A stretch of DNA of 64,000 bases from Siphonodentalium dalli (taxonomy: Eukaryota; Mollusca; Scaphopoda; Gadilida; Siphonodentaliidae). The stretch lies in contig CP136062.1 of the NCBI GenBank assembly GCA_032622095.1, forward strand, positions 155,304,875 to 155,368,874, written 5' to 3'. The translations under genes and the position numbers were made by a program. The notes under the pieces were generated by a model that worked only from the letters and a program-made list of their open reading frames with translations, did not search any database and was not told the DNA's origin. This document shows positions 1 through 64,000 of the stretch, piece by piece; within the stretch, counting starts at the first letter, position 1, and each line of letters begins with the position of its first letter.

Positions 1-89
1 ATGCTACGTCATTAGTGTTCGTATAGCACATATATCTACATATACGTTTGGGGACATCCAGGATACAAATGTGTTGTCAATCTTGGTGG

Positions 90-297
90 TTCGCCCCATC
101 ATTGACTTCGGCGGTGGAACTTTTGCAACTTTAAATCATACCTTAAATTCCATGTACAATGGACATGACTATATATATGTTTGGTGGAAATCTAAATTGA
201 CATCAGCAAAGCGTGTATCATGTTTGAGCTCTTTCACTGATGCACAACTGTGACATCGACTTTCTTATCCTTAAACCAAACCATTAGACTCCCTATA
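90..297 (+). repeat. Inverted-repeat arm 1, copy A
   Basis: This stretch matches the reverse complement of 20769-20968 over about 200 bp with moderate divergence. Shared landmarks are a CCATCATT-type block near 95, AACTTTAAATCATACC near 130 and CCATTAGACTCCCTAT near 280. The arms enclose some 20 kb. They may be two dispersed copies of one repeat in opposite orientation and not the ends of a single element. Confidence 0.75.
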
Positions 298-1114
298 ATC
301 GATTACATAATATTTTTTGTATAAATGTGTGGTCTGTGTCATTTGGGGACCTTTAAACTACACCATTAATGCCACTATGATGGAGCTGGCTAACGACTCG
401 TCAAGTTAGCATTTCAATATCCCCCAAGGCAAGTATGCAAGGATGACTCGCATTTAATGTCCACAAATTTGAAGGACAGCGAACGAAAGAAATGATTTAT
501 TCCACCGAGCCCGTTTCTTATACCATTGAATTGTATGCTAAATGTGTTTTGGGAGGTCTATTTTACTTTAAACAGTTAACCATATATACCGCGTTCATAT
601 ATCTAATGGTGGTATCTTAATAACAGGGTCGTTTGATTCTATATTTTATGGAAATACTAATAATGCAACACGTTCGAAAGAGATTCATAGAATTGTGGGT
701 TGTTGTTGCTGCTGAAAATGTTCATGGGGAGTGATAGACCATCAGTAATGATAACGATATGGTACAAGTCTGAGTTAAGAATAAGATTGGAATGGGCTTA
801 GAGTAGTCATATCGGTTATCACAGGTAGAGTTTATAGTTTTGTTTAGAATGAGCTGTTAGTATTTTTGAATGACTCGGTGTACTCGCACCAACGGACTGA
901 AGGCCGTTGGTACTTGCGCGAGTTATTGCTATATATCCATTGCTCTTGTTATTCTGATAACATTGGATCATTCAACGTGGCAATTTACAAACTTAGTTGG
1001 CGAAATGCTTTGTCCTAGATATGTATATATGTACTTCTGCAACTTTGTACAGTGGGTTCGGGTGTTATATCAGGGGATCCACAAAGACACTTGTGGGTTG
1101 TCAAGTTGCAGGTA
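298..1114. other. No recognised feature
   Basis: AT-rich sequence shared with copy B (46219-47036). A plus-strand open frame of 99 codons at 870-1169 has no recognisable similarity and lies antisense to the retrotransposon remnant. Nothing else is supported. Confidence 0.5.
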
Positions 1115-1650
1115 TCATTTAATGACTGGAGAGGCGAATTCCTTTCGGATGTCGCTGATCATGAGGTAATGGTCGTTGTCCTCTATGTGTCCATATAATC
1201 AGTACGGGTGGTGGTCGGCGATGAAATGTGTGTATGTGTGATCATTTAAATCACTGCAGTTGAGTCTGGGGCGGGTGTGGTTAATATGTGTTTGCCTGGT
1301 ATTAGCTTCATAATAATGTTGGTTAACTCCCTGGTCCCCATTTAGGAACTCTGTAAATTATGCCAGGGATGCATAACTTGTTTCGTTGTGGTCGATATTA
1401 TTCCATAGGTCTATTGTTGAGGGAATTGAAGGCGGCGGAGCCGAACGTCGAGGCTTGGGGGAATTGGCCTGTCGGGTCTAAACATTTGTTATTTGAAAGC
1501 TTGTTGGGGTATCAGAGGCTTGCCGGACATCATTTTGTTCCCACCCGGTTTCCTTGTCATCGGAGAAACTTTGAGCCTTCGCAGCAACGTTACTTTTGGT
1601 GTGAACTATCGATCTTTTCCAAGAGGGTGGTATTTGCAATTGATCTGGGG
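1115..1650 (-). pseudogene. Non-LTR retrotransposon RT C-terminal remnant (copy A)
   Basis: Read on the minus strand from about 1411 down to 1115, one frame carries the usual tail of CR1/L2/Jockey-type reverse transcriptases. It shows an LWNNID motif, then a segment ending NHTRPRLNCSDLNDH, then a degraded metal-binding block with GHIEDNDHYLM, the place where intact elements have a CxC...H...C arrangement. The frame has several internal stops, and a less clear continuation runs up to about 1650. The overlapping plus-strand open frame at 1360-1737 is only its shadow. This is a dead 5'-truncated element. The family assignment rests on motif recognition. Confidence 0.7.
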
Positions 1651-2319
1651 GGAATAGTTTGGTTAGGGATCTTCTTCCTGGATTATATGGTACGGTCGTT
1701 GGTTGGAGTATTCATGAGGTTATTCACTTTCTCATAAATTAAAATTTTTATGAAGTGTCGGCTCGTTTGCCTACATTGGTGCTCGGCGTAATCAATCATG
1801 TATTGTTTGTCATTTTTGTTTGCTGATGTTTGGTATTCTTCTTAATAGTTTTGTGTGCATGGGTTTCACGTTGTTCATCTCTACTTTGAGGTGATTTGCG
1901 CACTCTGTAGTAGATTGCATAGCTGATTTAAAGAAAACCTTATGAATGCATAGATGTATTGACAGCCATAGTTTGTACGTTTCGGATGACATAGGATATT
2001 GTTTGTGTCGCCGGCGTCATCCCGGATTTGTGAACATCTGGCCACTTCCATAGCCGTCGATCGCACATCAGTAGTAGGTCCTCGGTCGATCGAGATTTGG
2101 GAGGCCGTCTGACCAAGTCAAGTGACGAAATGTCCTTTCTTTTTGTTGTAATTGAACTGTATATCATATTATTACTCATTTTACCTTGTGGGTCTGCAGT
2201 TGTATTCCGTTTTCCCGGATACTTAGTTTATATACTGTCTATTGCACGGAAGCGAGGAATATCGTCCAGAGAACTACGATGTTAGGTATCAGTAAAATTT
2301 GGCGGATGGTCAATCTTTC

Positions 2320-3950
2320 GTTTTTTTAGTTGCCAAATGAAAATAAAAGCAGACGATCGACAACTATCCCAGCAGACACCTCGGACTACCCATCGAATTA
2401 TGGTCGGGCCAAAGACTGGTACATAGCCTGAGCGGTGACCCGTTAGTCATTGCTTATACAAGCCTCTTGGTACATCACCACAATGAGACAGGCGTTAGCA
2501 GTACACTGTTGAAACATTTATAAGTCATGAAGACGAAATTAACGGCACAACATACATGATAAACAGAACACACAACTAGATACCAGAAAAAAAAAATAAC
2601 AGGTGGCAGAAATTTAATCTGAAACACTGTGAGTGTCGTGACTAGCCGATTGATTGAGCCGGATCAACTCAACCACCCGTATTGAAGAGATGTAGAACCA
2701 AAGAGGACCATGAGCTAAGCCATTACCACAGGTCGATGTCTCACTTGACACGGCTGCCCTAGTATTCCCAGAACTCCTGCACCACACATCAAGGGATGCA
2801 CCCCTCGGCAAAAGTGGACCACTTTAGGGTAAATCTTTACGGGATTCTTAATAAGTGAACCTATTCTACCCGGGTCCATACGGGGATGATTTCTTTATTA
2901 TGATCAATTGGCAGCAAGCAATACAAAAATAGTGGTATATGTGGAGACAAATAAGTGTTGATAGAGATCACATGGTGAATATCCATGCACTCCCAATGGC
3001 GATTCCTCAATAAATCACCCGAATAGCCTAAAGTGAAATGGGTTTTGTATCAGATGCTGAAATGCGTCTACGATTATGTTAACTTGTCGGATTGCAATAG
3101 CTGTTCAACATAATTATAACAAGGCAATTTTGAAAGTCACATGTGCAACTAAAGACAAACTATGCATAGATGTCTGAAATATCAGAGCTCATGGAACTAT
3201 GTATGATATGACACTGATATGGACAGGAATGTCACCCCAATAGCCTCGGTGGTATTCCGTTCTCGATCGGGCGATACACATCCGCGTTGCACTCAAGCAC
3301 TAGCGACAACTGTATACTGTACTTACATATTTGCCCAAACACGTCTCGTCTTGCTCTCGTTTCCATCGATCACACCTACGCGACTATAGATATAAAGAAC
3401 CATATTCGACATTGGTATGCGACTTATGCATGATGGCATATTAACGATGTATCCATCGGCGGCATGAATGTGGCAATAATTATTCCTCCAATACCCATCT
3501 TACAATTGGTTATACATAAGGACTTGATAAAGCATACTGAGGTGTGAGATGATAACATAAGAGAGGATAGCACAAGTCTGAGTATTTTAAGTCCTCTCCT
3601 CTAAGTTTTTCAGTCTTCTAGAACCAAGAGCGTTTGGTGGGAAGATTCCATTGCACGATATTTGAAAGTAGAAATAATTCATCACATTGCTCTTTTAAAT
3701 TTTACAATTATTTTGTCCTTTAACGTACATATATAATGAACTAACTTGTGTCCCTTCTCTGGTATGCAGTCAGCAACAACCTGCTAAACCGAGGGGTGAC
3801 ATTGGCATCCGGTATATGTTGTACAGCTGAAATGCGGGCATATAACTATACTTCAGTAATGCAGAATATTAACTCACCAGTACAAGGTTACAGTCAGTTA
3901 CACCCTATTTCCCAGAACAAAGTACCAGTGGTGTACGCTTGAGGATGTTC
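2320..3950. repeat. 1.6-kb dispersed repeat, copy A1
   Basis: This block recurs in the same orientation at 17583-19045, and both recur in copy B, giving four copies in the window. The best-conserved parts are 2620-2890 and 3170-3420. On the minus strand 2858-2886 contains a GACCCGGGTAGAATAGG motif that I recall from mollusc interspersed repeats. About 200 bp (2940-3140) are absent from the 17.6-kb copy. Short open frames on both strands are shared by the copies, but frame is not kept throughout, so I do not call a gene. The family is unclassified. Confidence 0.85.
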
Positions 3951-4239
3951 TTGGGACGGAGACTCGTGATACGAGAATACCGATTTCTGGTTTCGCAGTA
4001 ACGACACAGGTTATTTCTTTGATTGTTCATCATTCGCACGTTAGTTTGATTTTACAACTATTTATTTATTTTATTCTCACATTATTTGATATCACACTGC
4101 CGTTATGGTACATTCATACGCTTGCAATATTGCACTGAAAACTGCAGAAATGCCAGCTGTAAAATAGTCAAAACGGATTTTTGTGACTGGCCATCGGCGA
4201 GTGATTGGCAACTCCACCAGATAACGATTTCAAGTTAGA

Positions 4240-4360
4240 ATGTCCATGATGGAAATATCTGGATTTGAACCCTCATCGCCAGCGCTGGAGGGCGAGTCGG
4301 CTTCGAGTTGTACCCCTATCCGACTGAGCCATCGATACACCCGCGTGATTGCTGATATCG
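4240..4360 (-). mobile_element. tRNA-derived SINE head (copy A)
   Basis: On the minus strand there is a Pol III A box (TGGCTCAGTCGG, plus-strand positions 4320-4331) and, about 50 bp downstream, a B box (GGTTCAAATCC, 4261-4271). Spacing and sequence fit a tRNA promoter. The nucleotides flanking the B box do not form a proper T-stem and no acceptor stem forms, so this is a SINE head and not a functional tRNA gene. The 3' body and tail of the element are not delimited. Confidence 0.7.
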
Positions 4361-5222
4361 CTGAGCTATTTACAATTATATTAAGAATACAGTGCGTGTT
4401 GGTATTCTTATGCCGGTCAAAATAATGTCACTTGATATGTTGGAATGTGAGATCGACACGGCCAGCGCCATCGATGGGATGCTGCTGATATATATATACG
4501 AGTACCATAAATGTTACATAGAGATGAGATGGTGCGCCCGCACTTGGCTCAACGAAGAAATGCGGCGACTTTCTGACCTTCGATAAATCGCAGTGTAAGT
4601 CACCCTTGTAACATACATACACTATTTAATCTGAATCTGTATTATCAAACTTTCCAACTATTGGACATTCCCATCGCAACACAACCAATGGTTGAGAAGT
4701 CTCAACTGATTGCTGCATTTCAGTCAAAAATTCGGTCCTTCAGTCTAAACACACAATAATACTCTTTGTTATATCAAATTATCAGCACAAAATTCAACAT
4801 AGTTTCGTCGGAAATTTCCAATTAATGTTGTGTCAGGCATTAAATGTCAAACTGTTGTACTCTTGGAAATCCACCCTGACACATGTCCCTGGTGGTAAGT
4901 ATTGCATTGATTGAAATATAGGTTTATAAAAATACTTGAGTATGTTCATATATAGTAACTAATTGGGCTATCCGGCGTTGTCCATGCGAGTTAGAATGTA
5001 TTTTTGATATGCTTTATTTGAGTACTAAATTTACATAATTATAGCCTACACACAATAATTTACTGCATAGGTGTATATATGTATACATATGTATATATGA
5101 TTGATGTATCAATGTCAAAGAATAACCATTGCCACTGCTGTCAAGACCCCCACCATGACAAAAGCAATTTTCAACACAACTTTATTACATCAATGCAGTG
5201 TTTAAGATAATCGCTAGACTAT
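4361..5222. other. No recognised feature
   Basis: AT-rich sequence shared with copy B up to about 51300, including a TATATGTATACATATG-type stretch near 5075-5098. No gene is supported. Confidence 0.5.
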
Positions 5223-5224
5223 CA

Positions 5225-5765
5225 CTACTGCACAATAACCCATTAAATGACCATTAAATTCCCATTAATCAGAAGTAATTAAAACACCATTAAAACCCAC
5301 TTAAAAACCCATTAAAAAAACCTCTTATTCGTTGTCCTTTAAGTGCCATTAAATTGCCATTAATACGGACCATTAATGGGCATTAAATCCAAAAATATTT
5401 AATGGCATGTACACAATGTGTTAATGGGCATTAAGTATCGAGTAAATGCCATTAAAACAAATTAATGGGTGGTGACATCTGTTAATGGGCATTAATTTCC
5501 CATTAAAAACCACTTAAAGGACAACGAATAATGGCCATTAAATTCATGGCCATTAAATACTTCGTAATTGTCATGGCCATTAATTTTTGCAGAAGCATTT
5601 TCATTGCTATTAATGGGCATTAATTTCCCATTAAAAGCACTTTTTACTTTCATGGCCATTAATTTTATGGCCATTAATGACATTCCACATTTTAATGGGT
5701 TGAACTTATTTTTACTTTAATGACCATTAATGAGATTTCGAATGGTTTGAAATAATGGCCATGAA
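5225..5765. repeat. Left subterminal repeat array of the CACTA element
   Basis: Many copies of a short motif built on TTAATGG and its complement CCATTAA, often joined as the palindrome TTAATGGCCATTAA. They occupy the first ~540 bp of the element. In CACTA elements such clustered subterminal motifs are transposase binding sites; that role here is inferred. Confidence 0.88.
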
Positions 5766-7088
5766 ATATACCATAGCAACCATTAACCAGGGCTGGCATT
5801 TTGCAGGCGGGCTGCCCGCCTACAGCCCACGCAAAATTATTTTAGGCGGGCGATTGATAGCCCGCCTAACTTCTCCTAAGTTTGACTGGCAAAGTCGCGA
5901 AGTTTTTCAGAACAAAACTTCAAAGACCGACACCGCCGACGAAACACGAAAGAGACTGTCGGTTTATTCGAAATTCCATCGCTGAAACAAAGACTAATTC
6001 GCGTTTATTGTCGACGGAGGCCACGTGCTATCCCGCACATCACTGTTATGTGTTGAAGTTGAACGCCATTCTGTTCCGGAGTTGAAATTTTTAACACCAT
6101 ACTTGAAATTTTGCGATACCTCAATGGAATCGAAAGTTGTTTATTCTCGTAAACTGTAAACAAATAAAAAAATTATGTGTAAATGAAATCAATAAATTTT
6201 ATAACTAGAAAGTCAATGTTTTCCGTAGGAATACTTTGTCAATTTTTATAACACATAGTTGATTCAGTGTCGTACGTGTCATATTAAACAAATTCTTCAG
6301 AATTTAGAAAATGCAAAATGAGTTGAAATTTGTGGAATTTCCGCGGACAATATTGATACAAATGTATAACAATCTGACGGAAAATCGGGACCAATCTTCC
6401 GAATATATTATTTTCATTCACAAGTCTGGTATGCTGTTTAATGCAATTTTTATATTTTTTGGTTGAGGAGGCTTAATAGCGTGATCACCTGATCACAAGA
6501 TACTAGGATATCCGTTATCTAATATACTAGTAGTTTAGCCTTCCACTCGAATGATATTAGTGTGTCATATTCAAAGCACACAATATATTATTCCTATTGT
6601 CTCGGCATTGCCTGTTTCAATTATGAATGAGCTTTATTCTTATCAATGGGGAGGTGGGATATGTACTATTGTACACTCCCACTCATAGTTATAAAAGTAT
6701 ACATATGAATAGTTTGGAGGGGTGTTCATGAAACCAACAGGAAACGACATGAATACAGAGTCTATAAAACAATCGCATCAAACTAGACAAATAGCCATTT
6801 CACACCAGCGTTGCTGAAGACAAATCTGAAACTATGGGTTCCAATAATGCTCCAGACCAAGTTTGAAAGAAATCCACCCAGTGGTTCTTGTGAAGATGTT
6901 TTAATGTTGCACCAAATTAAGCCTCTAAATTGCCCATAATTAACATATTGACCTAAGGCCATTAAAAATTAAAGTCCGGGCTCACAGGCAATTATGTCTA
7001 AAGTTTTGTTGAGGGAGGGAGGCTTTTTATATTTATTACTTATTTTAAATTCTTCAAAACATACCTCAAAATCGAATAATCATTTTTC

Positions 7089-8002
7089 ATGATTCCAGCA
7101 GGGGGGGGGGGGGGCGGAAAAAAACTGCAGACACAGGGTGGAAAAAACAGTTTTCTTCGGTTTGGGTACCCCCCCCCCCCCCCCCCCAAACAGCAAAAAC
7201 TGCAGTTTTTTTCCACTGACCATTTGCCCCCCCCCCCCCCCCAGAAAAATCAAATCTACCCCAGCCGGACAACAACTCGGTTTGACTGCAAACCGAAAAA
7301 AACACCGGAGCATACAATTAACGAGAAGGTGCTTGGTAACTTAGTTTAGATTATTATGACTAAAATGGTCATTGTCTACCAGTAGAACGCAGATTTGTAC
7401 CTCGTGATATCATGACATGTACAAACATGTATATTGGTGATCGCAACGCTATGTATGCACTTTAAAAAATGACAACTAGTCATTACCTCGACTTTGAAAA
7501 AGATGCAAATGAGATGAGTGAGATACCAGCATATAACTGTTTTCTGATACCATTGGAGGAGAAATTGTTTAATACATGGGATAGTTCTCCAGTAAAAATT
7601 TGCCAGATAAGCGATCGCAGGGTAGAATTCTGCATTCGACTGGTAGACACTGACATAGTCGGCATTATTAAGAGTGTTAATGGGGTCAATATCACATGTA
7701 AACCAAGACAGTGGTTATCCAAAATTGTTTTATGTGGATTGTACTACTCGTGTATATATGATTTTGATATTAAGCCAATTTAAGGTTAATCCATATTCTA
7801 TAAAATGAGAGAAAATTGAAGTTGTGGGTCTGAAAATACATATTTGGAAAAACATTACATGCAAATTTTTTCCGACAACCCCCCCCCCCCCCCAAATGAA
7901 TAAGGAAAAAATGTACGTGTAAATTTGTTACGCCTGTGTACCCCCCACCCCCGGTACGTTGTGTCCCGCAGTTTTTTTTCCGCCCCCCCCCCCTGATTCC
8001 AG
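7089..8002. repeat. Cluster of long G/C homopolymer tracts with inverted flanks
   Basis: Pure runs of 14 G (7101-7114), 19 C (7169-7187), 16 C (7227-7242), 15 C (7879-7893) and 11 C (7983-7993) lie in otherwise AT-rich DNA. A GGAAAAAAACTGC-type block sits beside the tracts at about 7116-7128 on plus, 7200-7215 on minus and 7965-7982 on minus, so the cluster ends are inverted copies of each other. The proline- and glycine-rich open frames here arise from the tracts. Confidence 0.85.
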
Positions 8003-8748
8003 GTAATACAACTTGTCTCTGTGTAATCACATGTATAGCTCAATACTTGGGAATATTCTGACACCTCTGTTGTTCCAATTCCCAAAGCATGATGGCTCTA
8101 AATGGCCATTGAGGAAAGGCATAGCATGAGTTTTTTCTGGTTCTATTCATAATAGGGTGAGGGATATGGTTTATAAAGTCAGAACCGCTCAATGTCTCCC
8201 ACCAAATATCAGAACTGTACAATGTAACCACACAAGTAGAGAAACACACACCACTCAAATTACAAAAACTTCTGACAATTGTATTAGGAATTCTGAGAAA
8301 GCGGTCAGATTCAAATGTAGCAGTGCCATAATGTAGCAGTTCTGTTGCAGACATTTATGGCAATATATTCGTGTGTAGTGTTTTACTCCATACATTGGTA
8401 AATACAACCACACGACCGCTCTGTGCGATACACGTGTTCATTGTGCCTACATGACATGTATATATATCATAAAAATCCTAACACCAGTCAAAAGCTGCAA
8501 ATAAATTGCCTGATTTGGAACGAACGCGCAGATATGTGATTTTCGGTTTTCGGAGAGTAGGGACATGACATTAAATTAGTCATATGTGATCGTAAATAAA
8601 ACAAAAAATTGAATAGTATAAAATCTACTTTATGCGACTCATCGTCTATATACTTTTCGGCGCGGTGATTGTAATCTTTGCGTGTTGCATTGTTCCTTAA
8701 CGCAACGCAGTTAACGTAAACACGTTGCGTTGACGTTATGACCGCGTT

Positions 8749-8826
8749 GTTAACGCCTGGGGACCGCGTTAAACAGGACACTTATTTGTTAACGCCTGGG
8801 GACCGCGTTAAACAGGACACTTATTT
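8749..8826 (+). repeat. Perfect 39-bp tandem duplication
   Basis: Units 8749-8787 and 8788-8826 are identical. As the length is a multiple of three, the duplication adds 13 codons to the open frame at 8738-9145, but I see no sign that this frame is a gene. Confidence 0.95.
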
Positions 8827-9334
8827 TGAGAAGATCTGTGCATCTGTAATTGTAGGTATCTCAGCGCAGGAGCCTTGCGACTGTAGGTGCATGTGGTGTC
8901 AAAGTGACAGTTCTGATAAATTGGTTGAATTCATTGGGAGGAACTTCAAGAAGAAAAAAGTATTTGTGAATAACTTCATTTTAATTTTTCTATTAGATCA
9001 CCTATTTTGGCACCAGGAAACACTTTTGCCCATTGAAACTACTCGAGTTTCCGATATAGAATATCGGTTTAATGTCTTTCAAATCGTTTGGAATTTTCGG
9101 GATTTCGCCAAATCATCAGATTTATTGCATTTTATTGTCTCATAAAGTTCACCAACAGATGTTCCTTCGGTTAATCCTCCATATACACTCCACTGCAGGA
9201 TAACTGTGATCCCTGTCGTAATGCACACAGAAAACAAACTCATTTTCCCATTTTAATCAGTCCAAAATTGATGAAAAATAGACAAACGATAACATTGGAG
9301 CACGTGCTTTTGACACCGGAAGTAAATATAACCG

Positions 9335-9385
9335 GTGCTTTTAAAAATGTGACCGGTGCTCTTAAAAATGTGACTGGTGATCCAA
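9335..9385 (+). repeat. Short tandem repeat, ~24 bp unit
   Basis: About two and a half copies of a unit containing ACCGGTGCTCTTAAAAATGTG, with small changes between units. It lies inside the CACTA-type element. Confidence 0.75.
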
Positions 9386-10473
9386 AAATAAGTCCCTATC
9401 ACTAGCGTATGGAGGGGACTTTTTTTTTCCTTTTTTAAATTGCGATAAATGGTTTTGATGCGGCGGACTTTTAGTGATGCGGGCGGGGCCCACGAACACA
9501 GACTTTAATTTGTAATGGCCTATTAAAGGTATATATCTTTATTGAACACATATTCCCAATAAAGGATAGAAAACCACACAATGCATCTTTTGAAAATATT
9601 GTGTGTCACTGTGGAACTGATATTTGTTGAAAATGAGTGGTTTGGTAACTTAATGTGCGCCAGAACCTCTGGTGACAAGCCTGTGACTCTAAATATCGTT
9701 ATGAAAGTGCTTGCTCGATAAATTCAGCCCCCAATCAAGTGACAATATATCACATTTTATCGTATAGTATATATATTATATATCGTAAAGTTACTAAGGC
9801 TCGAATTAGTTTCTCCTCTCGAAAACAAGCATATAGCACTGACGCATGTCAGGTGATCAAGCGTCCCAGTCGCCCTGGCGGCTTTAGTTTGAAAATACTA
9901 TTGGTGACATCACATAATATAGCTATAGTGTATATCATATATATATCAAATTATCTAATTAATAAAACACACTGATCATCAGACATGATTCCATTTCTAT
10001 CCATGAAAACCGTTTTGCATTTGGGTTGTATTGGTATTTTATATATAAAAGCAGTTTAACAAGCTTAAGTTGCACAGGCACAACTTGTACATTCCAATTT
10101 ATTTCATTAGAATCTAAAAGAAACCACATTTGGAAAGTGATGAACATCAATTTTCCTATTCCAATAAGATGGGGTGTTAATTAATAATATTTACACTTCT
10201 ACCTCCACTTCTGGTACCGAGATTGGATCAAGTCTTCTGTTTGGTCAGGAACTGATCAGCTGATGGAGCAACCGTAATGCGTAAAGTGTGAAAGAAGTGA
10301 CACCTGCTTCACATGTGTAACGTAGGAATTACGTTAATAACGCGCCTGTCGCTTTCAACATTCTATTTTTCATTAGAAAACGGTGCAAATCAGCTGTGCA
10401 AATCATTCATTTTATTCAATATTCGAAACCAATTTCCATTGAATGTTCTTTTTGGTGTGTAAATATAAATAAT

Positions 10474-10596
10474 GCTTCCTGTATTTCCATGCGTTATGAA
10501 ATCAGGTTGGTCTGACAAAGTTATGTGAGGAGCGCTTCAGCGCTACGCACTGCAACCTGCTTTCATACATCGATCATATCTAGAAATACAGGAAGC
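10474..10596. mobile_element. Fold-back element (MITE-like), 123 bp
   Basis: The ends are a perfect 14-bp inverted repeat, GCTTCCTGTATTTC (10474-10487) with 10583-10596. Further inside, ATGAAATCAGGTTG pairs imperfectly with CAACCTGCTTTCAT. Almost the whole segment can fold into one hairpin. It lies inside the CACTA-type element, so it is a nested insertion or a captured repeat. Confidence 0.7.
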
Positions 10597-10619
10597 AAAC
10601 TTTCAGTTCTTAATGAGTT

Positions 10620-11190
10620 TGATGGGCATTCATTTTTCCAATTATATGTTAATGGCCATTAACCATCATTTAGGGCCCTTAATTTGTTTATTACTAAGTT
10701 AATGGGCATTAAACACCAGCACTATTGAGGTGATAGCCATTAATTTTTCAAAATGATTAGATAATGGCCATTAAACACCCAAATGCATATAAGTAATGGG
10801 CATTAACATATAATTAATGAGCAAAAAGTTTTCAAATCATACAGTTATGGGCAGTGGTGGGTATAAATTTGTCAAAATACTTAATTAATGGCCATTAAAC
10901 ACTCAAATACATATAATAGATGGATAATAGCCATTAAAATATTAGAGACTATGGCCATTAAATTGTAGTCTTTACAAATTTTAAGGGCATCTAATGGGCA
11001 TTAACAATACATGGTTGATGATTAATGGGAAATAGGGCAGTATTGGCCATTAAAATAACAAAATATATTGGTTTTTAATGGGTTCTGGGAAACCCATTAT
11101 TTTTTTTGTTACGAGAATTAATGGCATAAAGTAATGGATTTATGATATTTAATGGGATTTTAATGGGATTTAAATGAGATTTTAATGGGT
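10620..11190. repeat. Right subterminal repeat array of the CACTA element
   Basis: The same TTAATGG/CCATTAA motif family as at the left end, again over roughly 570 bp, with TTTAATGGG-type copies dense near the terminus. Confidence 0.88.
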
Positions 11191-11204
11191 TGTGTGTGCA
11201 GTAG

Positions 11205-11604
11205 TGTATGTTCGCCCGGGTTCTAACCCAAACATATTCGAAAATCTGCACCTCTCAATGTGCCATTCCGATCGATACATTGCCATTTCGATAATAAATG
11301 AGAAACTGTTCAAGCTCATTGAATTAAGCACATTTGAAACAACGAATACCCATACTGAGTTATTGCCTCCATAAATCTTACGTTTGGTGAAGTTGGCGAC
11401 AATGTTAGTGTCAATTCTGCCAGCGCCCGTCACCCTAGCTCCCAATTTTCTGATTTGAGAAGTACCACTATTATGCCACGTCATGAGAGTGCTCGCGTAT
11501 AACGGAGAAGCGTATACATGCATAATTAAGTACGACAATCGCCGATACCAAAATGTTCTATCAACGCCCCTCCCCGATACACAATTCGTATCAAGGACAA
11601 CCAC
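11205..11604 (-). CDS. Unrecognised open frame (copy A)
   Basis: An open frame runs on the minus strand from an ATG at 11604 through about 133 codons before it enters the CACTA right end and stops at 11182. The same frame is open in copy B, with very few changes. I recognise no domain, signal peptide or membrane segment. Because A and B are so similar, openness in both is weak evidence of constraint. It could be an unidentified exon, part of a repeat, or chance. Confidence 0.2.
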
Positions 11605-11967
11605 TAATTCATCATTTGGGAATAAATTATTTGATAAAATACTAATTTAAAAAAAAAAAAAAAATACTAAAACAAAATACAGAACCAAAAAAAAGAATAA
11701 TAATATGCATAAGAAAGAGGATAACAGCAAACTCACTCAACATTATATTAAGACAAAACAAAACAATTGTGGTGCAAAATAAGGAAATGTCCGATAAAAA
11801 TGACTGGACAATTTCTTAAATGAGACCATTACATTGGGTGGATAATAATTGAATTAACTTACTGGAAATTCCCAACTTATCCCAAGTCCGCTAAGTTAGA
11901 TATATTGTAGGCCCATGTACCTATCATCGCCACTCTCCAATGGATTAAAATTTTCCAACTAGTACTT

Positions 11968-22268: not shown

Positions 22269-22269
22269 G

Positions 22270-50319: not shown

Positions 50320-50440
50320 ATGTCCATGATGGAAATATCTGGATTTGAACCCTCATCGCCAGCGCTGGAGGGCGAGTCGGCTTCGAGTTGTACCCCTATC
50401 CGACTGAGCCATCGATACACCCGCGTGATTGCTGATATCG
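50320..50440 (-). mobile_element. tRNA-derived SINE head (copy B)
   Basis: Same element as at 4240-4360, with the A box at 50400-50411 and the B box at 50341-50351. Both boxes are unchanged. Confidence 0.7.
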
Positions 50441-51697: not shown

Positions 51698-52060
51698 TAA
51701 TTCATCATTTGGGAATAAATTATTTGATAAAATACTAATTTAAAAAAAAAAAAAAAATACTAAAACAAAATACAGAACCAAAAAAAAGAATAATAATATG
51801 CATAAGAAAGAGGATAACAGCAAACTCACTCAACATTATATTAAGACAAAACAAAACAATTGTGGTGCAAAATAAGGAAATGTCCGATAAAAATGACTGG
51901 ACAATTTCTTAAATGAGACCATTAAATTGGGTGGATAATAATTGAATTAACTTACTGGAAATTCCCAACTTATCCCAAGTCCGCTAAGTTAGATATATTG
52001 TAGGCCCATGTACCTATCATCGCCACTCTCCAATGGATTACAATTTTCCAACTAGTACTT

Positions 52061-52293
52061 CATTCCGTCCAGCTGATGGAAACTCCCAAATTGACACCCC
52101 TATAATAAAGGTTCGAATGGTTTCCAAATGATGACCATTCTGTCCAGATGTTGGAAACCTCAACAAATACCCCAATAATAAAGGTTCGAATGGTTTCCAG
52201 CTGATGACCATTCTGTCCAGATGTTGAAAACTCCCCAACTGACACCCCTATAATAAAGGTTCGAAAGGTTTTCAGCTGATGACAATTCAATCC
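52061..52293 (+). repeat. ~74-bp minisatellite (copy B)
   Basis: Copy B equivalent of 11968-12200 with the same number of units. Confidence 0.9.
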
Positions 52294-52818
52294 AAACAGT
52301 TGACCGAAATTAGGATATCATTCCAATTTTGGTCCAAAAATAGAAGAATTAAAACAATTTCAACCATTTTTAGTTTAAACATATTTATTTGTCTAATCTA
52401 TATAACCCATGACATATAACACATATATTGTGGAATTGGAGGACAGGTGCTAAATCACTTATGGGTACCCATCTCCCATATCACTGATAAATAAATAATT
52501 AGTAATAGCAAACCAACTTGACTACAAAACAAGTTGAACATATCACCGGTCACCCCCACCATTTTTGTCATGTTCCTCCAACTAACTTACCAGGCATGGA
52601 TGACATTTCCAACTGCTAAAAGTTTTACCAAGGTTGCAGGTGAGACACCAAATACAAGTTTGTGAAACCCGAGTTCCAACTTTAAAACAACCCGTTTGTT
52701 TTAAACTTGATATCCAGTCTAAATATAACGGTGAATGCTCAGCAATTGACATGGATTTCACAATTTCATTCGTCACCGAACGGATATCAATAGTCTCAGA
52801 ACAGGTGAGTGGCCACAT

Positions 52819-54591
52819 GTGAGACTCATACATGGGGTGACTATATGGTTTTTGTTGTGGTGGAGGATTTCATCTTCTAATTCCAATCTGCATCCCACCA
52901 AATTCCCAACTATAGAGAAAACGGACGACACGACGCTCGTACTTGTTGGTTCTGAAAATAGTCTACGTGAATCGTACTTAACACTGGACGAATTTGCTCG
53001 GATATCGGGTCTGCGCATAAATCCTGAAAAATATCAAGCAGGCATGGATAGGGATAGGGTCACAAAATAAAATACGACAAGCTATTACGGAACTAAACCT
53101 GTCTACTGTAAGCATTTAAAAAAAATTAGGGATACATTTCGACACTAATTTAATAATCATGAATATAAAATACAATGATAGACTCGAAGATATAGAACAG
53201 ATCACAAACATTTGGAAACACAGACTCCTGACCCCTTTAGGTAGAATAACAGTTGTCAAATCCCTCATCTTACCAAAATCGACCCACTTATTTATAACTC
53301 TTCTACGTCCAGATACAGCTTTTTTGAAAGCCCTAAATACCTGTTTATACAATTTCATTTCGAATTCCAAACGTGATAGAATAAAAAGCAAACAACTATG
53401 TGCCGACCATATGCGCGGAGGTTTGAAGATGATTAATGTTGAAAACTTTGAGAGCGCCATGAAAATTAACTGGATACGACGCTTGATTTGCAAACAATCG
53501 AAATGGGCTTCATTGTGCAATACCACCCCTTTCTTAAACGACCCACTATCTCTCACTTACCATGCAAATTATATTGTAAAGCAAACAAACAAGTTCGCAA
53601 ATCCATTCTAGAGAGATGATTTCGGCGCATGGTGTAAACTTATGCGATCAAATAATTCAAATAATAATATTATGGCCTCAAATTTCTGGAATAATCCGAA
53701 TATAAAAATCGGAGGTTCGTCGATCAACTTTAAATCTTGGAGAGATGCGGGGATATATTTTATAAATGATCAATTCCAACCAGATAGTAAATGCCCTACC
53801 CCATATACATTATATTCAACTTTCAACATCGTGTTCCCAGAGGGTGAATTTCGTGATGCTAGCCCGCTATGTCGATTTCATAACAATCAGCAACACAATA
53901 CGTCATATACTGTCATTGGCAAGTTCTCTTAATCAACCCTTAATTCGTGTACCCTGCACATGCCCACACAATAATCTTCCTCCGATACTCCGTGACTTAA
54001 AAGGCGGACATTATTTTACACAATTCTAGCAAGTGGGAACACTATGCCGAATGCATGCCAAAAATGGGAATCCGAAATAGGCGAATAGATAGAAAATTGG
54101 GAAGATTATTTGAGCATTCCCTTTAAAATCGGTACGAAATTACAGTGGCTCCAATTCAGAATCAATACACGAATTATTAGTACCAATACATTTCTGAAGG
54201 TGGCTATCATTCGAGTCGATGGTTTTTGTAATCGCTGTCAAAACATACAAGAAACAAATACTAATATTTGCTGGGATTGTCCCCATGTCCAAACTTTTAT
54301 AAACGAAATTTTAACATGGACAAGAAACAACCAATTCCCCGTTGATCTACAAAAAATAATATCATTTTCGGTATAGTTCATGAACACAGAAATTAAAAAA
54401 GTTATATTTTCCTGCTGGTTTTGAAACAATATATGTATAGAACAAAATTCACGCCCATGCAGTTGTCTCGCTTGTTCCTTTGTGATGTCAAATTTAGATA
54501 TGAATGCGAGAGATACAGCGCAAAATGTAATATGAATCGTGACTTCGATAACCAGTGGCTGACACTTCGATATGCCTTAAAAATTCTGTGA
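52819..54591 (+). pseudogene. L1/Tx1-type retrotransposon RT remnant (copy B)
   Basis: Same remnant as 12726-14454. It keeps KTDDTTL at the catalytic site, where copy A reads KTDN. It has 6 extra bp near 52975 and 38 extra bp near 53832 that copy A has lost. The main open pieces are 53159-53611 and 54110-54376, and the terminal stop is at 54589-54591. Confidence 0.9.
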
Positions 54592-55275
54592 AATTGTGGA
54601 TATTGCTCAATAAACTAGAAACAAAACTGAACTAATGTGGGTATCTAAACGCAGCAACTGTGTTTAGACAAAGCCATGCATTATACCAAAATTAAACAAA
54701 ATACATACAAATAAAAACACAGAAACCAGAGCGAGAGTGCTCGATTGCGGTCGGAACCATTAAGAAACTGACCATTGTGCAAACACAGATAACACATAAT
54801 ATCAAAATAGACAACAATACTGCTTTGAGAACAGCCAAGATATAAAACCTGTATAAAATTAGACAGCAAAATTTAATTTAATTTAACAAGGCTCCGGCAT
54901 ATACCATTTGAAGTAGCTGGCAAATAAACCTCATGAATGGTTGATAATATATTTATAATCTGTTGAATATGGGGTCAATTCAACAAGTTGATAATTGGTT
55001 AGTTGACTCAGTAGTTGATCCCTCGCCCAACAGCCAGCCTCCCTCCACATAGCATACATGGTATCCACTTCCCTCCATGTTAACATGATCTCTCGAAGCA
55101 TAGCATCGAACATTAAAAACTCAAAGATCAAACGCTGTTTCCGAGAGTCAAAGATTTGACAGATTTTGGAGATTTTTGTTTTTGAACAATATGATCAACT
55201 TGCATAGATTGTTTCGGATGATCTGTCTCGACAGAGGAGACGTAATCCATTACTTGCGCTACTGGTTCTGGAATA

Positions 55276-55317
55276 GGAATAGTATCACTATTCCTGCAGG
55301 AATAGTATCACTATTCC
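55276..55317. repeat. Twin tandem 19-bp palindromes (copy B)
   Basis: Identical to the structure at 16682-16723. Confidence 0.95.
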
Positions 55318-55453
55318 TGCACGTGCGTTGCTAGTGATACACTGACGAGTTTAGTTTGACTCTGTGTTTGAGTGCTGTCGCCAGCACACGTTTTGTAGAC
55401 CCTATTGTTGAGTACGTAATCTGTGGCCGAGGACAAACTATTTTCTTAGCATC

Positions 55454-56124
55454 TATATATGACATATTCGTCTCAGCAATATATCATTGAATCTTGAATT
55501 CATACTCCAAATTGGGACATGGATGATCCATTGAAGCATGTTAACCTTGAGAGTTTGAACATTGCTTAATATTCGTACAATCCTTATGACCAGGAATGGA
55601 ACAGTGTGCGCACCTGGTTTCTTCACTTTTACAATGTTCATGGTCATAGCCTTGACATTTAAAACATTGCAATGGGGTTGGAACATATGTGCTTATATCC
55701 GTCTTCATATACCGAATCTTCAATGTCGGTGGATGGTCGCAACGACTGAAGTTCAGAAGATAATTATTCAACGGAACGTTTTGACCATCGACTGTCTTAG
55801 TAAATCTACGGACTTCTGGAACTCCCTGTGGTGTTCTCAGCCAATATCTCTGATTCAAAGGAATCAGCTATATCGCGAATTCTCAACACAGCTCTACTAC
55901 TGTTCAATGACTTGAGATGTGTGAGCAATATTGGTGTTTGTGCAATGGATGTTAATTGAATAAGAGCGTTTGCTTGAATTTTTCTTGAACATTTGATCAG
56001 AAGAGATCCACTTAGTGGCCAGTCCTGATCGGTTTGACAGATTTTGATTGTCCGGCTATGCTTTGTAGCGTTTTATCAATAACAAATGCAGAAGGTTTTC
56101 GTGACATTTGATCAAAACCAAGTA
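55454..56124 (-). pseudogene. Non-LTR retrotransposon ORF1 (zinc-knuckle) remnant, copy B
   Basis: Copy B equivalent of 16860-17530. The open stretch is 55858-55541. The first knuckle reads CFKCQGYDHEHC, closer to the family norm than V at that position in copy A. Confidence 0.85.
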
Positions 56125-56177
56125 CTAAGGAAATACCTCAGCATCAGTGGAACTTGGTGGAAGGTCAATTTTACGTT

Positions 56178-57640
56178 TTTTTTTAGTTGCCATATGAAAA
56201 GCGGATGATCGACAACTATCCTCGCAGCCGCCTCGGACTACCCACCGAATTAAGGTCGGGTCAAAGATTGGTACATAGCTGAATTGTGACCGGTTTAGAT
56301 ACTTCACATATCAGCCTATCGGTACCTCGCCATAATGAGACAGGCGTTAACAGTATATTATTGAAACATTTAAGTCACGAAGACGAAATTAATGGCACAA
56401 CACACACGAACAACAACACACTACTAGACACCGGAAACAAAATACAGCAGACGGCAGAAATGTAATCTGAAACACTGTGAGGGACGTGACTAGCCGATTG
56501 ATTGAGCCGGGTCAACTCAACCACCCGTCTTGAAGAGATGTGGGACCAAAGAGGACCATGAGCTAAGCCGTTACCACAGGTCGATGTCTCACTTGACACA
56601 GCTGCCCTAGTATCCCCAGAACTCCTGAACCACACATCAATGGATGTACCCCTCTGCAAAAGTGGGCAACTTTAGGGATTCTTACCTCTGGCAGTGGGAC
56701 AGTAAACACATTCTACCCGGGCCCACACGGGGAAATATTTCTTTATTATGATCAATTAGCAGCAAGCATTAGAAAAAAAACAGTGTTATGTTGAAATTAA
56801 AGACAAGTCATGGATAGATGTCTGAAATATCAGAGCTCATGGAACTATGAATGATATGTCACTGATATGGACAGGAATGTCACCCCAAGAACCTCGGGTT
56901 GCAGTCCGTTCTGGGTAGGGCGACACATATCCGCGTTGCTCTCAAGCACCGGCGATAACGGCATACTGTACTTGCATATTTTCCCAAACACGTCTCGTGT
57001 TGCCCTCGTTTCCATCGATCACACTTACGCGACTATAGATATAAAGAACCATAGTTGACATTGCTATGTGGATTATGCATGGCGGCATGTTAATCGGCGT
57101 CATTACTGTGGCATCATTGTAAAGTACACAAGAAATTGACAAAGCATAGTGAATTGTTTGATGATAACATAAGAGAGGATCGCAGTTCACGTCTAAGGTT
57201 TGGAGTCCTCTCTTAAGTGTTCAGTCTTTTAGAACCAAGAGCGTTTGGTGAGAAGATTTAATTGCACGATATTTGAAAGTAGAAATAATTCATCAAATTG
57301 CTCTCTTAAGTTTCACAATTAGTGTTTTCCTTTAAATTATATATATATAATGTTCGAACTTGTGTCCCTGGTATGCAGTCAGCAACAAAACATGCTAAAC
57401 AGATGGGTGAGGTACATGTGGTATTGGAATCCGGTGTATGATTTACAGCTGAAATGTGGGCATATAACTATATGTCAGTACATGTATATTAATAACCTCT
57501 ATATATTTTCGGCTTAGACAACGCGTTCGTATTATGTATGTTAGCTGAAATGCAGAATATTAACTTATCAGTACAAGGTTCCACCCCGTTTTTCACAACA
57601 AAGTACCAAATTGTGTACACATGTGGATTGTCTTGTGACG
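56178..57640. repeat. 1.6-kb dispersed repeat, copy B2
   Basis: Copy B equivalent of 17583-19045, almost identical. Confidence 0.85.
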
Positions 57641-58087
57641 GTCTTGTATATAATCCACACCAAACTGCTCAGTGCGATAATCAGGGGACACAGTATCTCT
57701 GTGCACATGTCTGCTGATGATAATTAGCTGTACATTTCTGGTGACAACCCCTATTGCTTTACAACTATAATGGAACAGTGCAATTATTTTGTGAAATCGT
57801 GGATGGTGGCCAATAAACTGAAACTAATTAGTGACAAAACTGAAGAAATGTGAGTGTCTAATCTGGCATACGTAAAGAAAGTTAGCATATATGTTATGAC
57901 TTTTGATGACACTCAAGTTCACACTCCTACAAGCCACATATGCAAGGCAATATACACTGAACTTCGGCGACATTGGAAAATGAGAAAATACATTCAAAAC
58001 GACTCAATTTTTTAAAAACGTTAGTCATCTCTAAGTATCAGTCGACCTGACTACAACAATTCTATTTTAATTGGTGTTCTATATAAT

Positions 58088-58342
58088 CAGGTATCTCAGC
58101 GTCTGCAGAAAACTGTTGCAAGGATAGTTCTCTGTCGTAGAAGATCTGACGACAGATGCAATCTGCAAGAATTACATTGGCTACCTGTAGCAGACATAAT
58201 TCTGTATATACGACGGGGAACTATCCTAGCATATATTCAATGGTATGAAACACGCGATCCGTGGAATATATCACTTCATTCTTCCACTGCCCTTCAAGTT
58301 TGTGGACATTCAATGTTAGCCATCCTTGCGTACTTGCCTTGA
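58088..58342 (+). pseudogene. Non-LTR retrotransposon RT C-terminal fragment, copy B
   Basis: Copy B equivalent of 19493-19747, nearly identical and equally open. Confidence 0.82.
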
Positions 58343-59220
58343 GGGCTTATTGAAATGCTACTCTAGTGAGTAGTTTAAGAATACCAATGCTGATAAATAA
58401 CTTTAGGAATAGCCATTAAATAAATAAATATTACACAAACATTTCTTGTAAAAAGTTGGTAAGTCTGATTTATAAAGGTGATCCACACCGAGTGACCAGA
58501 CATCTTACTAGCATAGCTGCGCTGAATGTGGGATCCCACATTTCATAAAACCAAGAGACAGTGAATATTATAATGCATTCTGGAGGACTATTGTCTACAT
58601 GTCTCTGAATGGTGTAGAAACTTACCAAATTAAAAAAAATACGTCTCTTGTGAGAGAGTTTCGACAGCCCGTGCACCATGCACGCCCGCATCGCCGAAGT
58701 GAATTAAGTCACATTAACGTAGTAGATAATTATACAAATTATCGCGGTATATTTGCTTAAACATATGGTATATAATACCAATCTCATAATGGAAAGTATC
58801 ATTTGTTACGTCTTGATTATCTAACCGAGGAACGGCAAGAGTTGATGCTTGAAATTAACACATGCTTCCAATAATAATTCATACTGGAATCGCAAAGGGA
58901 AATTACTGTTTAAAGTTAAATAGCCCTAAATAAAACAAGCAAATATGATACAACTCGACATTCCGATTTGTTAGCACCAAATTGGGCACCACTATTTAGC
59001 AAATTCCCGCCACATTTATAGTTATATCCTTGATATAAGTACTTTAATGGTGTGGTTTATAGATACATGAGTGACGGATCGACGCCATTGGTGTCAGGGA
59101 AGGGGGGGGTCACACATAATGACAACAACTATATTGTAGAATTCCACTAAACTTGTATGATATATTTATAATGTATAATGTATTCAAACGTTTGAGGCGC
59201 GGGTCCAGTGGAATACATTA

Positions 59221-59256
59221 TTTTTCTTTCTTTCGCTTTCCTTCAAGTCTATGGAC

Positions 59257-59288
<32 letters not shown>

Positions 59289-59752
59289 CATTTAAAAACG
59301 CATTATACAATAAAGTTTCAATGCGCTTTACAACAAAGCGCGACAAAAATAACATTGAAATGTAAAATTTAAAAAGCATAGTAATAAGGTAAAGGAAGTT
59401 AAGATGATGACTAAGAACTAGATTTAAACTTAACGATTAACTTGCGGGAAACATTGTCTAAAAAGTAAAGTTTTGAGATCGGTTTTGAAATCCTTCAATG
59501 TAGAACATCGTCGAACAGTTTGTGGCAGACCGTTCCATACCTGCGTAGCCAATTCCTGAAAACATTTTTTACCGTAATTCACGTTGGGTTTCGCTATTGT
59601 CCTAATGTCTAAACCGCTTGTCGTTGAACGCGTAACTCTGCCGGATTTTAGGACAAACATATCAGATATGTACTCAGGCGTTGTCTTTCTCAATGATTTG
59701 TATATAGTCACCGCACATTTGAACTTAAGTGAGTCAATGTTTGAACATAAAA
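59221..59752 (-). mobile_element. 5'-truncated non-LTR retrotransposon, only in copy B
   Basis: The ~530-bp extra segment relative to copy A (junction near 20625) contains a minus-strand reading frame from about 59755 to 59430. It codes the end of a CR1/L2-type RT: VTIYKSLRKTTPEYISDMF, then KKCFQELATQVWNGLPQTVR and FKTDLKTLLFRQCF. Downstream on that strand is an (AAT)n tail, plus-strand (ATT)n at 59257-59285, which fits the simple-repeat tail of such elements. The first ~36 bp, a pyrimidine-rich stretch with CTTCAAGTCT, are probably target sequence lost from copy A. The ATG at 59768 lies in flanking sequence, so it is not the element's own start. Confidence 0.88.
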
Positions 59753-59891
59753 ATTCAATGTGAGTCATCCGAACTTGCCTTGAGGGCTGATTGAAATGCT
59801 ACGCGGATGAGTCGTTATTCGTCTCCATGGTATACTATGGACTTCTGTCGTACATCTCCATCAACCTTGTATAAAATGTTCTCAACGCCAT

Positions 59892-60091
59892 GCTATAGGG
59901 AGTCTAATGGTTTAGTTTAACCATACGTCAGTCGATGTCATGGTTGGGGACCAAGGAAGGAACATGATACAAACTTCTTTGTCATCGATTGCCACCAGAC
60001 GAATACATAATGGAATTTAGATTGTACATGGCATTTAGGGTATGATTTAAAGTTGGCAAAGTGCACCGTCGAAGTGAATGATGGACCCGAA
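59892..60091 (-). repeat. Inverted-repeat arm 2, copy B
   Basis: Copy B equivalent of 20769-20968, in opposite orientation to 46011-46218. Confidence 0.7.
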
Positions 60092-61270
60092 GCTCTTTAT
60101 AATGTGTTTTCACTGGGGCCCGAACCATTCAATTGTATAAAGGTTACACCCCCACTATTTCAGAACCAAATAAGTCCAATATGAACATATGTGGATATTT
60201 AAGTCAGACATGAACCTATTTGTACGAGAGTGTTCTGGAAATGTATATGTATGTGTCTATATGATATACTGCACTACATGGTGTACTTTAAAGTCACATG
60301 GCGGTATGCGCTCCGAAATACACCTAATAATATTCGCTGTAGATTTTTCCCGGTATCGAAATAGGTCGAGATATACTTCCATTTTACGGCAGTATAGTCC
60401 CAGACAGACGCATTGAACTCATACAAAATATAACTTTGAAGACGGTGTTTGGGTGCTAAACAAACAACAGCCATGTCACGGCATGGCACATTAAAGATAA
60501 TTCTGTGTTACGCTATTCCTGATATTGTAGAAATAAAGAGCGTTTGTTTCACTTCTGTGCGAAAAATTGAAAACAGCTGGAAGATGTCTGTAACCATGGC
60601 AATTATTTATCAGAGCATATATATGATGCCGGAATATAAATAGTTCGTGTATCTGTCAACCTATATTATACCTCCTACTAAATTAGGCAGACACATATTT
60701 GGAAGCTCGAAAGAGCCATGTCCGTTTAACATACTAAACACATGGTGCGTTCTAAATCAGGAATCGAAGTCGGATAAACCATATTGTACGACCTTGCCTA
60801 AACCTACACACAAGGCTCGTCCTGATTGGTCAGTATCCTGTATTCACATGCAGACGCGGACCGTCCTTTTGTAGTACAATTCTAGATATTTTTAATTGTA
60901 CCACAAACAATGTGGTACAATCAGTGAAATGCTGCCAACGCCTCGAAATTTCAGAAGTCAAACCATACGGTCATTGGCTAATGTCATGCTAAAGACTGAA
61001 GAAAGAGACATATAATGACTAACTACTGTATTATACTGATTTTTATTTAAGTTAGAACAAAAATAAGTCTTAAGTGAATTTGTTTGCCACAAAAACAATG
61101 GAAAGGGGTTGTCGTTCAATAGTGACGCTATGTTTCACTATCAGGTCTAAGAGAAGAATTGTTTGGTGGAAAATCTTACCACGCAGAGCTAGAAACTGGG
61201 CTATTATATAACAGTTTGAACATATGTCACTACAATTTCGACCAAACCATACAGTCGAATTACAAAAGAA

Positions 61271-61388
61271 ATAAATACACTGCGCATCGACGTGTATAGT
61301 AGAATTTGACCACATAAACTGATTGTACTACCCCGCTTCGCGTCGTCCTACAATCAGTTTCTTTGTGGCCGATGCGCAGTGTATTTAT
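61271..61388. mobile_element. 118-bp nested fold-back element (MITE-like), copy B
   Basis: Same element as 22151-22268. The 19-bp outer arms are intact here as well. Confidence 0.8.
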
Positions 61389-62505
61389 GTCTTAAATAGA
61401 TAAGAGCAACATTTCTATAAAGTGTCGCACAATTAACTAAACTTATATAGTCATCTCCGTGATATGATGTATTCGTTTTAAAGTATAGTTTTCATACTCA
61501 TAAGAGTCGCCGATAGATAAAGGAATCGCTATATGGCTAGTTAGGTGTTTCAAAGTGGGCAGATAGGCGCCGTTGGGTATGAGGAGCTAGAAAACAACAG
61601 CATTTATTATAGGCATCAACATGATACTAATCGTGCGGCTTGAAGATAAAGATTTACTGAATTGGGGTGGAGTTGATGCATTAAATTGATAAAGACGGAG
61701 TTACCGATATCAAAATGTTTGGTTAGTTTTTAAAGATCTACAGTCCGATTTAACACCAGATGACCGAATTATTTGAGATAATGACCAGCTTAGCAAGACA
61801 ATGAAAAAGGAAAACTGAATTCAATTATCATCTGTTCTATGGCACGAGCGTCGCGACAATTGACAAAGGCATATACACCAGGTTTACGCGTATACAATAT
61901 CATAATTAGGAATGCTGTGTATTATATTCCATGTTTGGGCAACGGAATCATAGCTTCTCTTTATCAGAGACACTCTTTAACAGAGATCGCTGGAATATTG
62001 CTCAGTCGACAGAAATTGAAGTCGACATCTGACCATCGAAACCTCCCGCTAATGGACCCAATCATCTTTATTTTGTGAATCAACGTTATTGCTGAGTACT
62101 CAGTTGTGATATAGTCTGTAAGATTACTGTGGTAATAATCTTCTATACCGATGTCTATTACACGTCCATGTTGTGTTTACTTCTTGACACGGGTCGAATT
62201 AATGGTGTTAAACTAAAGACAACAATGTGATTCACGGTATATGATCCATGTATAAGATTGACGTTGTATTATGCCAATTTGTGGAAAACATTAACTACCT
62301 TGACCAAATATATTCCTATCAAATGTCCCCATAAAATGTTCACGTCACTTTAACCTGGACAACGCCGGGTCACCATGCTAGTACTATATATAGCATGTAA
62401 TAAAATGCGTAGGAGCTGGGAGGAACACACTACTCACGTGACTATTTCTGGCAAGCAACGTTAGAATGTGATTATTTATTATAATTAGATGAGGATTCAG
62501 CGTCC

Positions 62506-62513
62506 TATATAAA
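62506..62513 (+). promoter_or_regulatory. TATA box of RGK-type gene, copy B
   Basis: TATATAAA, 112 bp before the start codon at 62618. It is closer to the consensus than the TATATATA in copy A. Confidence 0.55.
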
Positions 62514-62617
62514 GAGTCGTAGATAGGGACACCACTCATAACGCATTTGCAACTCATCAGTTAATAAACAATCGCTGACATTTATATCGCACCTTCGATA
62601 TCCTGTAATTTGTCAAA

Positions 62618-62942
62618 ATGTCTCGTCAAAATTATAAAATTAATGCTGAGGATCGTGACATGTACTCCTGTCGTTCTTTCAGCTTCACATCAAAAGGACT
62701 GATCAATAAGGGGGATTCGATGCAATCTCTGAGTGACGTAAGCCTAACATCAAGTAGTGGCGAATCGAGCGAGAGTTCTTCCCGTACTTCTAGCTGTTCT
62801 GACTTCTTTTACGCAGACGAATCGGTGCTAGGCCAAGAATGCTGCCGTGTAGCTGTCGTAGGTTCACATGGCGTTGGGAAGACGGCCCTGATACGACAAT
62901 TTATGACGTCAGAATACGTTGGTGATGTCGACGATGTGGAAG
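62618..62942 (+). CDS. RGK-type GTPase exon 1, copy B (gene runs off the window)
   Basis: Codes 108 residues plus one base. It is like exon 1 of copy A but with 11 extra residues (ESSESSSRTSS) in the serine-rich part, and three substitutions just before and within beta-1 (D to G, K to Q, I to V). The P-loop GSHGVGKT is unchanged. The same weak donor GTTGGT follows. The difference is in frame and the substitutions are mild, consistent with both copies coding. Exons 2-4 of this copy would lie beyond 64000. Confidence 0.87.
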
Positions 62943-64000
62943 GTTGGTACCGTTAATTTATTTTATTGTTTAAAGATTCGAATGGGCACCTAATTAGTAC
63001 CTAAGGTAATTTCCAGATAATATCAATATCAAATATAACCAGAACGCGCCACATGGCTTTTTGTCTCTGGAAGTTACATAATTATAATACATAAGACATG
63101 ACTTTGTTCAGGAAATTGAACGGCACCGATCTCCAGTACCGGGGCTGTATACAAATCATATATTCCTTTCTTCAAATCGTCCATTGATGAACTCGCGACT
63201 ACAAAACAAGGTAAACTGTTCATGTTAGAAATTACACGTGAAAAACATATTTACGGATATCCTTTTTTAAGTATGTCCCTTGTAATTTGAGTTCATGTCC
63301 TCTGTTCCGTTTGTAATCAGCGAATACAAAATAATAACACCGGTCCGTGTTATACAAACCGTTCTGATATATAGAAACCTCGATAAAATCGCCCCTAAAT
63401 CGTCTATTATTCATATATTTGAGTTTTACGATGCGTAAACCAGACATAAGAATAAACGCGATGTGTTGCATCCCAAAGGGATAATTACACTCACTTCATT
63501 TGCTGTAGTATTTTCCCCATCGATATCCAAATATTAAATGCTTTTAAATAGGGTAATTATATCGGTATGGGAATGGACGTTGCATATTAAATTTCGCTAT
63601 GACAACGCAAGACGTCGCGGCAACGTCACTACAAAGTTCCCAATATTTAACAATAGTTCACATTTAATCTATGTGTGTATATAAGTGTATTACGGGTTGA
63701 TAGTTTTCACTAAAATAACTATAATTATTAATCGACGTATCATAACAAAATGACAGATTGAATGGCATTTATCGTGTCCGACCAAAAACTGTTCGCAATA
63801 TACAGATATGGTAAATGGACCAATATCATAGCAATTAGCCAGGCTGCTTAACAAAAGGTAAACAAATGTACGACAGATTATAAGACATCGCTATCGCGAC
63901 GAGCACTGACCGAAATCGTTATTGTATGCTGTAACCCTTGCTACACTAAAGCATCATTGAATAGTTGTGATCCCAAATGAAATGTTCAGACAATAAGCTC
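62943..64000 (+). other. Start of intron 1, RGK-type gene copy B
   Basis: Aligns with 23790-24849 with only scattered differences. Open frames seen here (for example 63232-63471, minus) also exist in copy A and are unsupported. Confidence 0.8.

Follow-up and report, generated by a model that had tools for sequence, protein, structure and literature searches.

Two near-identical direct copies at an RGK-type GTPase locus of the scaphopod Siphonodentalium dalli: possible haplotypes assembled in tandem

The window analysed here, a stretch of 64,000 bases without any N from the scaphopod mollusc Siphonodentalium dalli (GCA_032622095.1, contig CP136062.1, positions 155,304,875 to 155,368,874 of the forward strand), carries two near-identical direct copies of one sequence, A and B, and a gene for an RGK-type (Rad/Gem/Rem) small GTPase that begins in each of them. 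Self-BLAST of the window, followed by global alignment block by block, pairs positions 1-24847 (the visible part of copy A, which may extend to the left of the window) with 45923-64000 (the visible part of copy B, which is cut by the window end) in eight long direct blocks that are collinear, on the same (plus) strand and 97.6-99.8% identical. The aligned blocks contain 226 mismatches in 17,225 bases (1.31%), which corresponds to an overall identity of about 98.7% and is far above chance expectation; the claim of two near-identical direct copies, made in an earlier reading of the bare sequence (hereafter the original prediction), is thereby borne out. The mismatches comprise 96 transitions and 130 transversions (ratio 0.74). 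Inside the blocks there are 11 indels, each of 1-6 bp, and seven larger differences lie between the blocks.

The largest of the seven is a CACTA-like DNA transposon of 5,984 bp that occurs only in copy A (5223-11206). It is bounded by imperfect terminal inverted repeats of about 47 bp with inverted CACTACTGCACA ends and is flanked on each side by the trinucleotide TAT (5220-5222 and 11207-11209) as a target site duplication, while copy B has an uninterrupted empty site with a single TAT; together these features identify the segment as a transposon insertion. CACTA elements are defined by inverted ends starting with CACTA and a target duplication of 2-3 bp, and we take the superfamily label from the start of the repeats and the length of the duplication. 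Two open reading frames (ORFs) in the element or across its end were tried as candidates for a CACTA transposase and gave no Pfam match; the element is CACTA-like only and may be non-autonomous. A search of a viral contig collection, a long shot for a eukaryote, returned no exact match to 27 bases of its end. The second candidate for an inserted element consists of 531 bp in copy B (59222-59752, minus strand) that stand against 4 bp in copy A and resemble, by eye, the end of a 5'-truncated non-LTR retrotransposon with an (ATT)n run; this element type is our assumption from the appearance of its ORF, which had no Pfam match. The prediction that the copies differ by the presence or absence of transposons is thus clear for the first element and holds by eye only for the second. 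According to the block alignment, the remaining differences are 38 bp present only in A (1157-1194), 194 bp (50074-50267) and 38 bp (53835-53872) present only in B, 1,594 bp in A (14665-16258) that face 51 non-aligning bp in B (54802-54852), and 33 bp present only in B (62762-62794, plus strand), which fall in exon 1 of the GTPase gene.

Such a pair could also arise by an error-driven or under-collapsed ('homotype') duplication, in which one haplotype is assembled twice with sequencing errors; we consider this very improbable. Two features for which we have no explanation would suit it: the mismatches cluster, with 25 neighbouring pairs at most 3 bp apart where about 9 are expected, and transitions are scarcer relative to transversions (0.74) than between the copies of an older internal repeat (1.15; 90/78 over three pieces). 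The transposon with its target site duplication, the in-frame change of 33 bp and the other clean indels are, however, biological differences. Homopolymer runs of eight or more bases adjoin only two of the 11 small indels, which argues against read errors as the sole source of the differences, and 226 substitutions against 11 small indels are unlike the error profile of long reads. Neither the context of the small indels nor the comparison of transitions and transversions tells alleles from paralogues.

The GTPase gene of copy A is placed at about 23498-33292 on the plus strand from ORFs, motifs, splice signals, Pfam and solved relatives, with four putative exons (23498-23789, 26139-26191, 31480-31663 and 33084-33292) whose splice signals keep the frame. 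With X at the missing part, the exon chain matches the Pfam Ras family (PF00071) at 64.1 bits (cut-off 21.6). Among the best 60 of 444 matches to solved structures in PDB, the top seven are RAD, GEM or REM1 (E 1.2e-18 to 1.5e-16); RAP2A ranks eighth (1.6e-12) and is followed by RAL-A, and the first REM2 is tenth (8.4e-11). Judged from its sequence, the gene is of the RGK type, and we presume that it is most like the invertebrate forms; a gene of this type speaks for an animal source. The predicted last exon in copy A ends in ...KSKASCENFMKL and has no CAAX box, which is consistent with RGK proteins; an excerpt of PMC4042065 describes these as having extensions at both ends, lacking classical lipidation and regulating voltage-gated calcium channels. 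With the known RGK GTPases (Rad, Gem/Kir, Rem and Rem2) the gene shares the Ras G domain, an N-terminal extension and the C-terminus without CAAX. It differs from them in its divergent sequence. For the exon of the G3/switch II part, a divergent region in RGK proteins, one motif search gave no convincing candidate, so that the gene model is incomplete.

Of the gene in copy B, exon 1 (62618-62942, plus strand) is within the window, and the remaining exons would fall beyond it. Exon 1 is open in both copies. Over 100 shared codons there are four synonymous and three non-synonymous codon differences, in a comparison that covers 23498-23797 and so runs 8 bases beyond the donor; the only length difference is the 33-bp segment, which preserves the frame and gives B 11 extra codons. 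A search of exon 1 against the same viral collection yielded 37 pattern matches, none of which was confirmed as a relative. Whether there is one GTPase gene or two, as the original prediction asked, is still the right question, but the gene of copy A lies mostly outside the extent that was given to that copy and runs to about 33292, and a second gene is represented in the window by exon 1 only.

The chain of matches between the copies begins with the pair 1 and 45923 and ends with the pair 24847 and 64000. Each of these pairs touches an end of the window, so the true borders of the copies lie outside the view; the offset between the copies changes from 45,922 at the left to 39,153 at the right because of the indels. 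The borders first proposed (24849 and 45922) are products of where the window ends, and position 45922, which had been taken for the junction, precedes the partner of window base 1. The junction from A to B is to be expected within 24848-45922, an interval without N and without a long match to A or B. If the unit or the contig happened to start at window base 1, the junction would be at the right end of this interval; otherwise part of the sequence to the left of 45923 would belong to copy B. A sensitive comparison of the interval with A and B found only matches of 34-71 bp at 72-88% identity, as expected if the partner sequences are outside the window. Were the copies directly adjacent, the unit would measure about 39-46 kb. 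We sought a junction marker among the repeats of the interval, namely a GC-rich tract with its small relative at about 30.5 kb, a direct repeat of 75-84% in Helitron-like remains and one inverted repeat, and none of them marks the junction. The region 26-45 kb had been suggested as a single-copy control for read depth; it is unfit for this purpose because, unless the unit or the contig starts by chance at window base 1, it should hold the right part of copy A and the left part of copy B. Likewise, reads over 45922 alone are no test, since the junction is expected anywhere in 24848-45922 and the whole interval must be spanned. A real duplication and misplaced haplotypes were the right pair of alternatives, and the sequence is compatible with both, but they were set in a wrong geometry of junction and depth control. 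The locus is a warning case: limits derived from a window are not those of the copies, and siting a depth control or a junction test accordingly would mislead.

We propose that A and B are a single locus of a heterozygous animal in its two parental versions (haplotypes), written in tandem by the assembler, and give this a probability of about 0.5. Our lean toward it over a real duplication is slight, and the weights given here to all readings, including a small remainder for other explanations, are judgements and not computations. To the observed copies, with their order, their differences and their open exon 1 frames, this proposal would add allelism and a misjoin at some place. The assembler would have kept both haplotypes and put one after the other in gap-free sequence. 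The change from one haplotype to the other would fall within 24848-45922, and its place may be a repeat, for instance the GC-rich tract (34.0-36.8 kb) or the Helitron-like remains (42.3-45.4 kb); the animal would then have a single RGK GTPase gene, present as two alleles. The picture of 1.31% divergence plus several large segments that only one copy has is the one given by two haplotypes of a heterozygous animal, and divergence of this order is the ordinary level of heterozygosity in many marine invertebrates. The known frequency of false duplication and its link to heterozygosity were also counted for the haplotypes. An excerpt of PMC9516828 puts false duplication at 4-16% for three vertebrates in their earlier assemblies, mostly through haplotypes kept as separate loci, and an excerpt of PMC8081667 ties it to heterozygosity, with the zebra finch (1.6%) the worst of the species studied. 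The false heterotype duplications described in these excerpts resemble the present case in their adjacent collinear copies, percent-level divergence and structural differences that inflate the gene count; they differ from it in that there is no N gap between A and B.

The divergence between the copies is patchy. Mismatch density has a variance/mean ratio of 2.24 in 34 windows of 500 aligned bases (chi-square p 6e-5), and the best two-break model divides the alignment into 50 mismatches in 2,500 bases (2.0%) at A 1-2533, 79 in 9,700 (0.81%) at A 2534-19812 and 97 in 5,025 (1.93%) at A 19813-24847. The gain of this model is 20.9 and was attained by none of 500 uniform shuffles, which reached 12.1 at most, nor by any of 300 in a second set. 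The middle segment is unlike a product of coding constraint because it holds a decayed retrotransposon frame (by eye, no Pfam match) and a 75-bp tandem repeat. We simulated haplotypes under a pairwise coalescent with recombination at six recombination/mutation ratios with 200 runs each; runs with fewer than half or more than twice the observed mismatches were dropped, which kept 140, 171, 189, 195, 200 and 199 of the 200 runs. At ratios 0.03, 0.1, 1, 3 and 10, both observed statistics lie within the 5-95% ranges of the simulations. The patchiness counts for haplotypes, because a coalescent with recombination yields such patches without further assumptions.

Several observations weigh against the haplotype proposal. 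There is no N in the window and hence no visible assembly gap, which counts against the commonest assembly artefact, and a gap-free misjoin would require common sequence at the junction, of which none is shown. At a recombination/mutation ratio of 0.3 the observed variance ratio falls below the simulated range (1.6% of the kept runs are as low), and for the ratios 0.1 and 1 it is inside the range but close to its lower limit (7.0% and 7.2% are as even or more so); at these three ratios the divergence is more even than the haplotype model would lead one to expect. Strong regional rate variation could also give patchiness: of 200 runs with rates varied independently among 500-bp blocks, a coefficient of variation of 0.2 let 0% reach either statistic, one of 0.3 let 6% reach the variance ratio and 0% the two-break gain, and one of 0.5 let 65.5% and 5.5% reach them, respectively. 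Gene conversion between real paralogues could give patches as well.

Such conversion belongs to the other reading of the pair, a real young tandem duplication of the unit with its RGK GTPase gene, to which we assign a chance somewhat short of even. The animal would have two gene copies, either as a fixed state or as a copy-number variant. Insertions would later have entered each copy, and gene conversion would have acted in patches; the middle segment of 0.81% can be read as a conversion tract. As in recent tandem segmental duplications, the near-identical copies stand head to tail in the same order and orientation, no gap interrupts the assembled sequence, and exon 1 is open in both copies with no length change other than the in-frame one. 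Unlike in such duplications, the borders here are outside the view and no breakpoint is shown: a junction that joins the right end of the unit to its left end was not recognised in 24848-45922. The second gene, moreover, is visible in exon 1 only, and a duplication must take a divergence at the level of ordinary heterozygosity as coincidence. A bolder version, which we hold to be unlikely, is that the duplication is very young and has left two working genes for RGK calcium-channel regulators, which would still exchange sequence by gene conversion and would already differ in length by 11 codons in the N-terminal extension.

Between tandem haplotypes and a duplication, the choice decides whether the genome is counted with one or two RGK genes. 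If the duplication is real, the copies are a young tandem pair whose divergence can be seen as a patchwork; if it is not, the locus is one more false gene gain.

The GC-rich tract of the junction interval (34050-36810, plus strand) is strand-asymmetric and composed of degenerate CCTAACC/GGGACGGGACC words, with CCCTAACC and GGGACGGGACC words in no single fixed period and the small relative at about 30251-30750. It is reminiscent of telomere-like repeats, yet it is no plain telomere array, and it is a possible repeat for a misjoin or for unequal exchange. Broken Helitron-like remains (42328-45404, minus strand) lie shortly to the left of the visible part of copy B and include a PIF1 helicase fragment (42328-42618; Pfam PIF1, 65.4 bits, cut-off 25.9); the rest was recognised by eye, and four other ORFs in these remains had no Pfam match above the cut-off. 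They contain an internal direct repeat (43238-43724 and 43795-44263, 75%) and are another possible repeat for the junction.

Neither Rfam, searched at gathering scores, nor a search for tRNA genes under the bacterial code gave a match. By eye, an open frame at 12922-13512 in A and 53120-53611 in B is reminiscent of an L1-type reverse transcriptase protein in its C-terminal part; Pfam gave no match for the A frame. The older direct repeat occurs within each copy, at 2288-3959 and 17549-19046 in A and at 48172-49747 and 56143-57484 in B, and is 77-87% identical in pieces. The inverted repeat of the interval (40205-40442 and 40983-41220) has arms of 238 nt that are 77% complementary and 540 nt apart, and is possibly a foldback element. 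The 75-bp tandem repeat, with 3.1 copies, is located at 11968-12195 in A and 52061-52288 in B, and the consensus and score reported for it are identical in the two.
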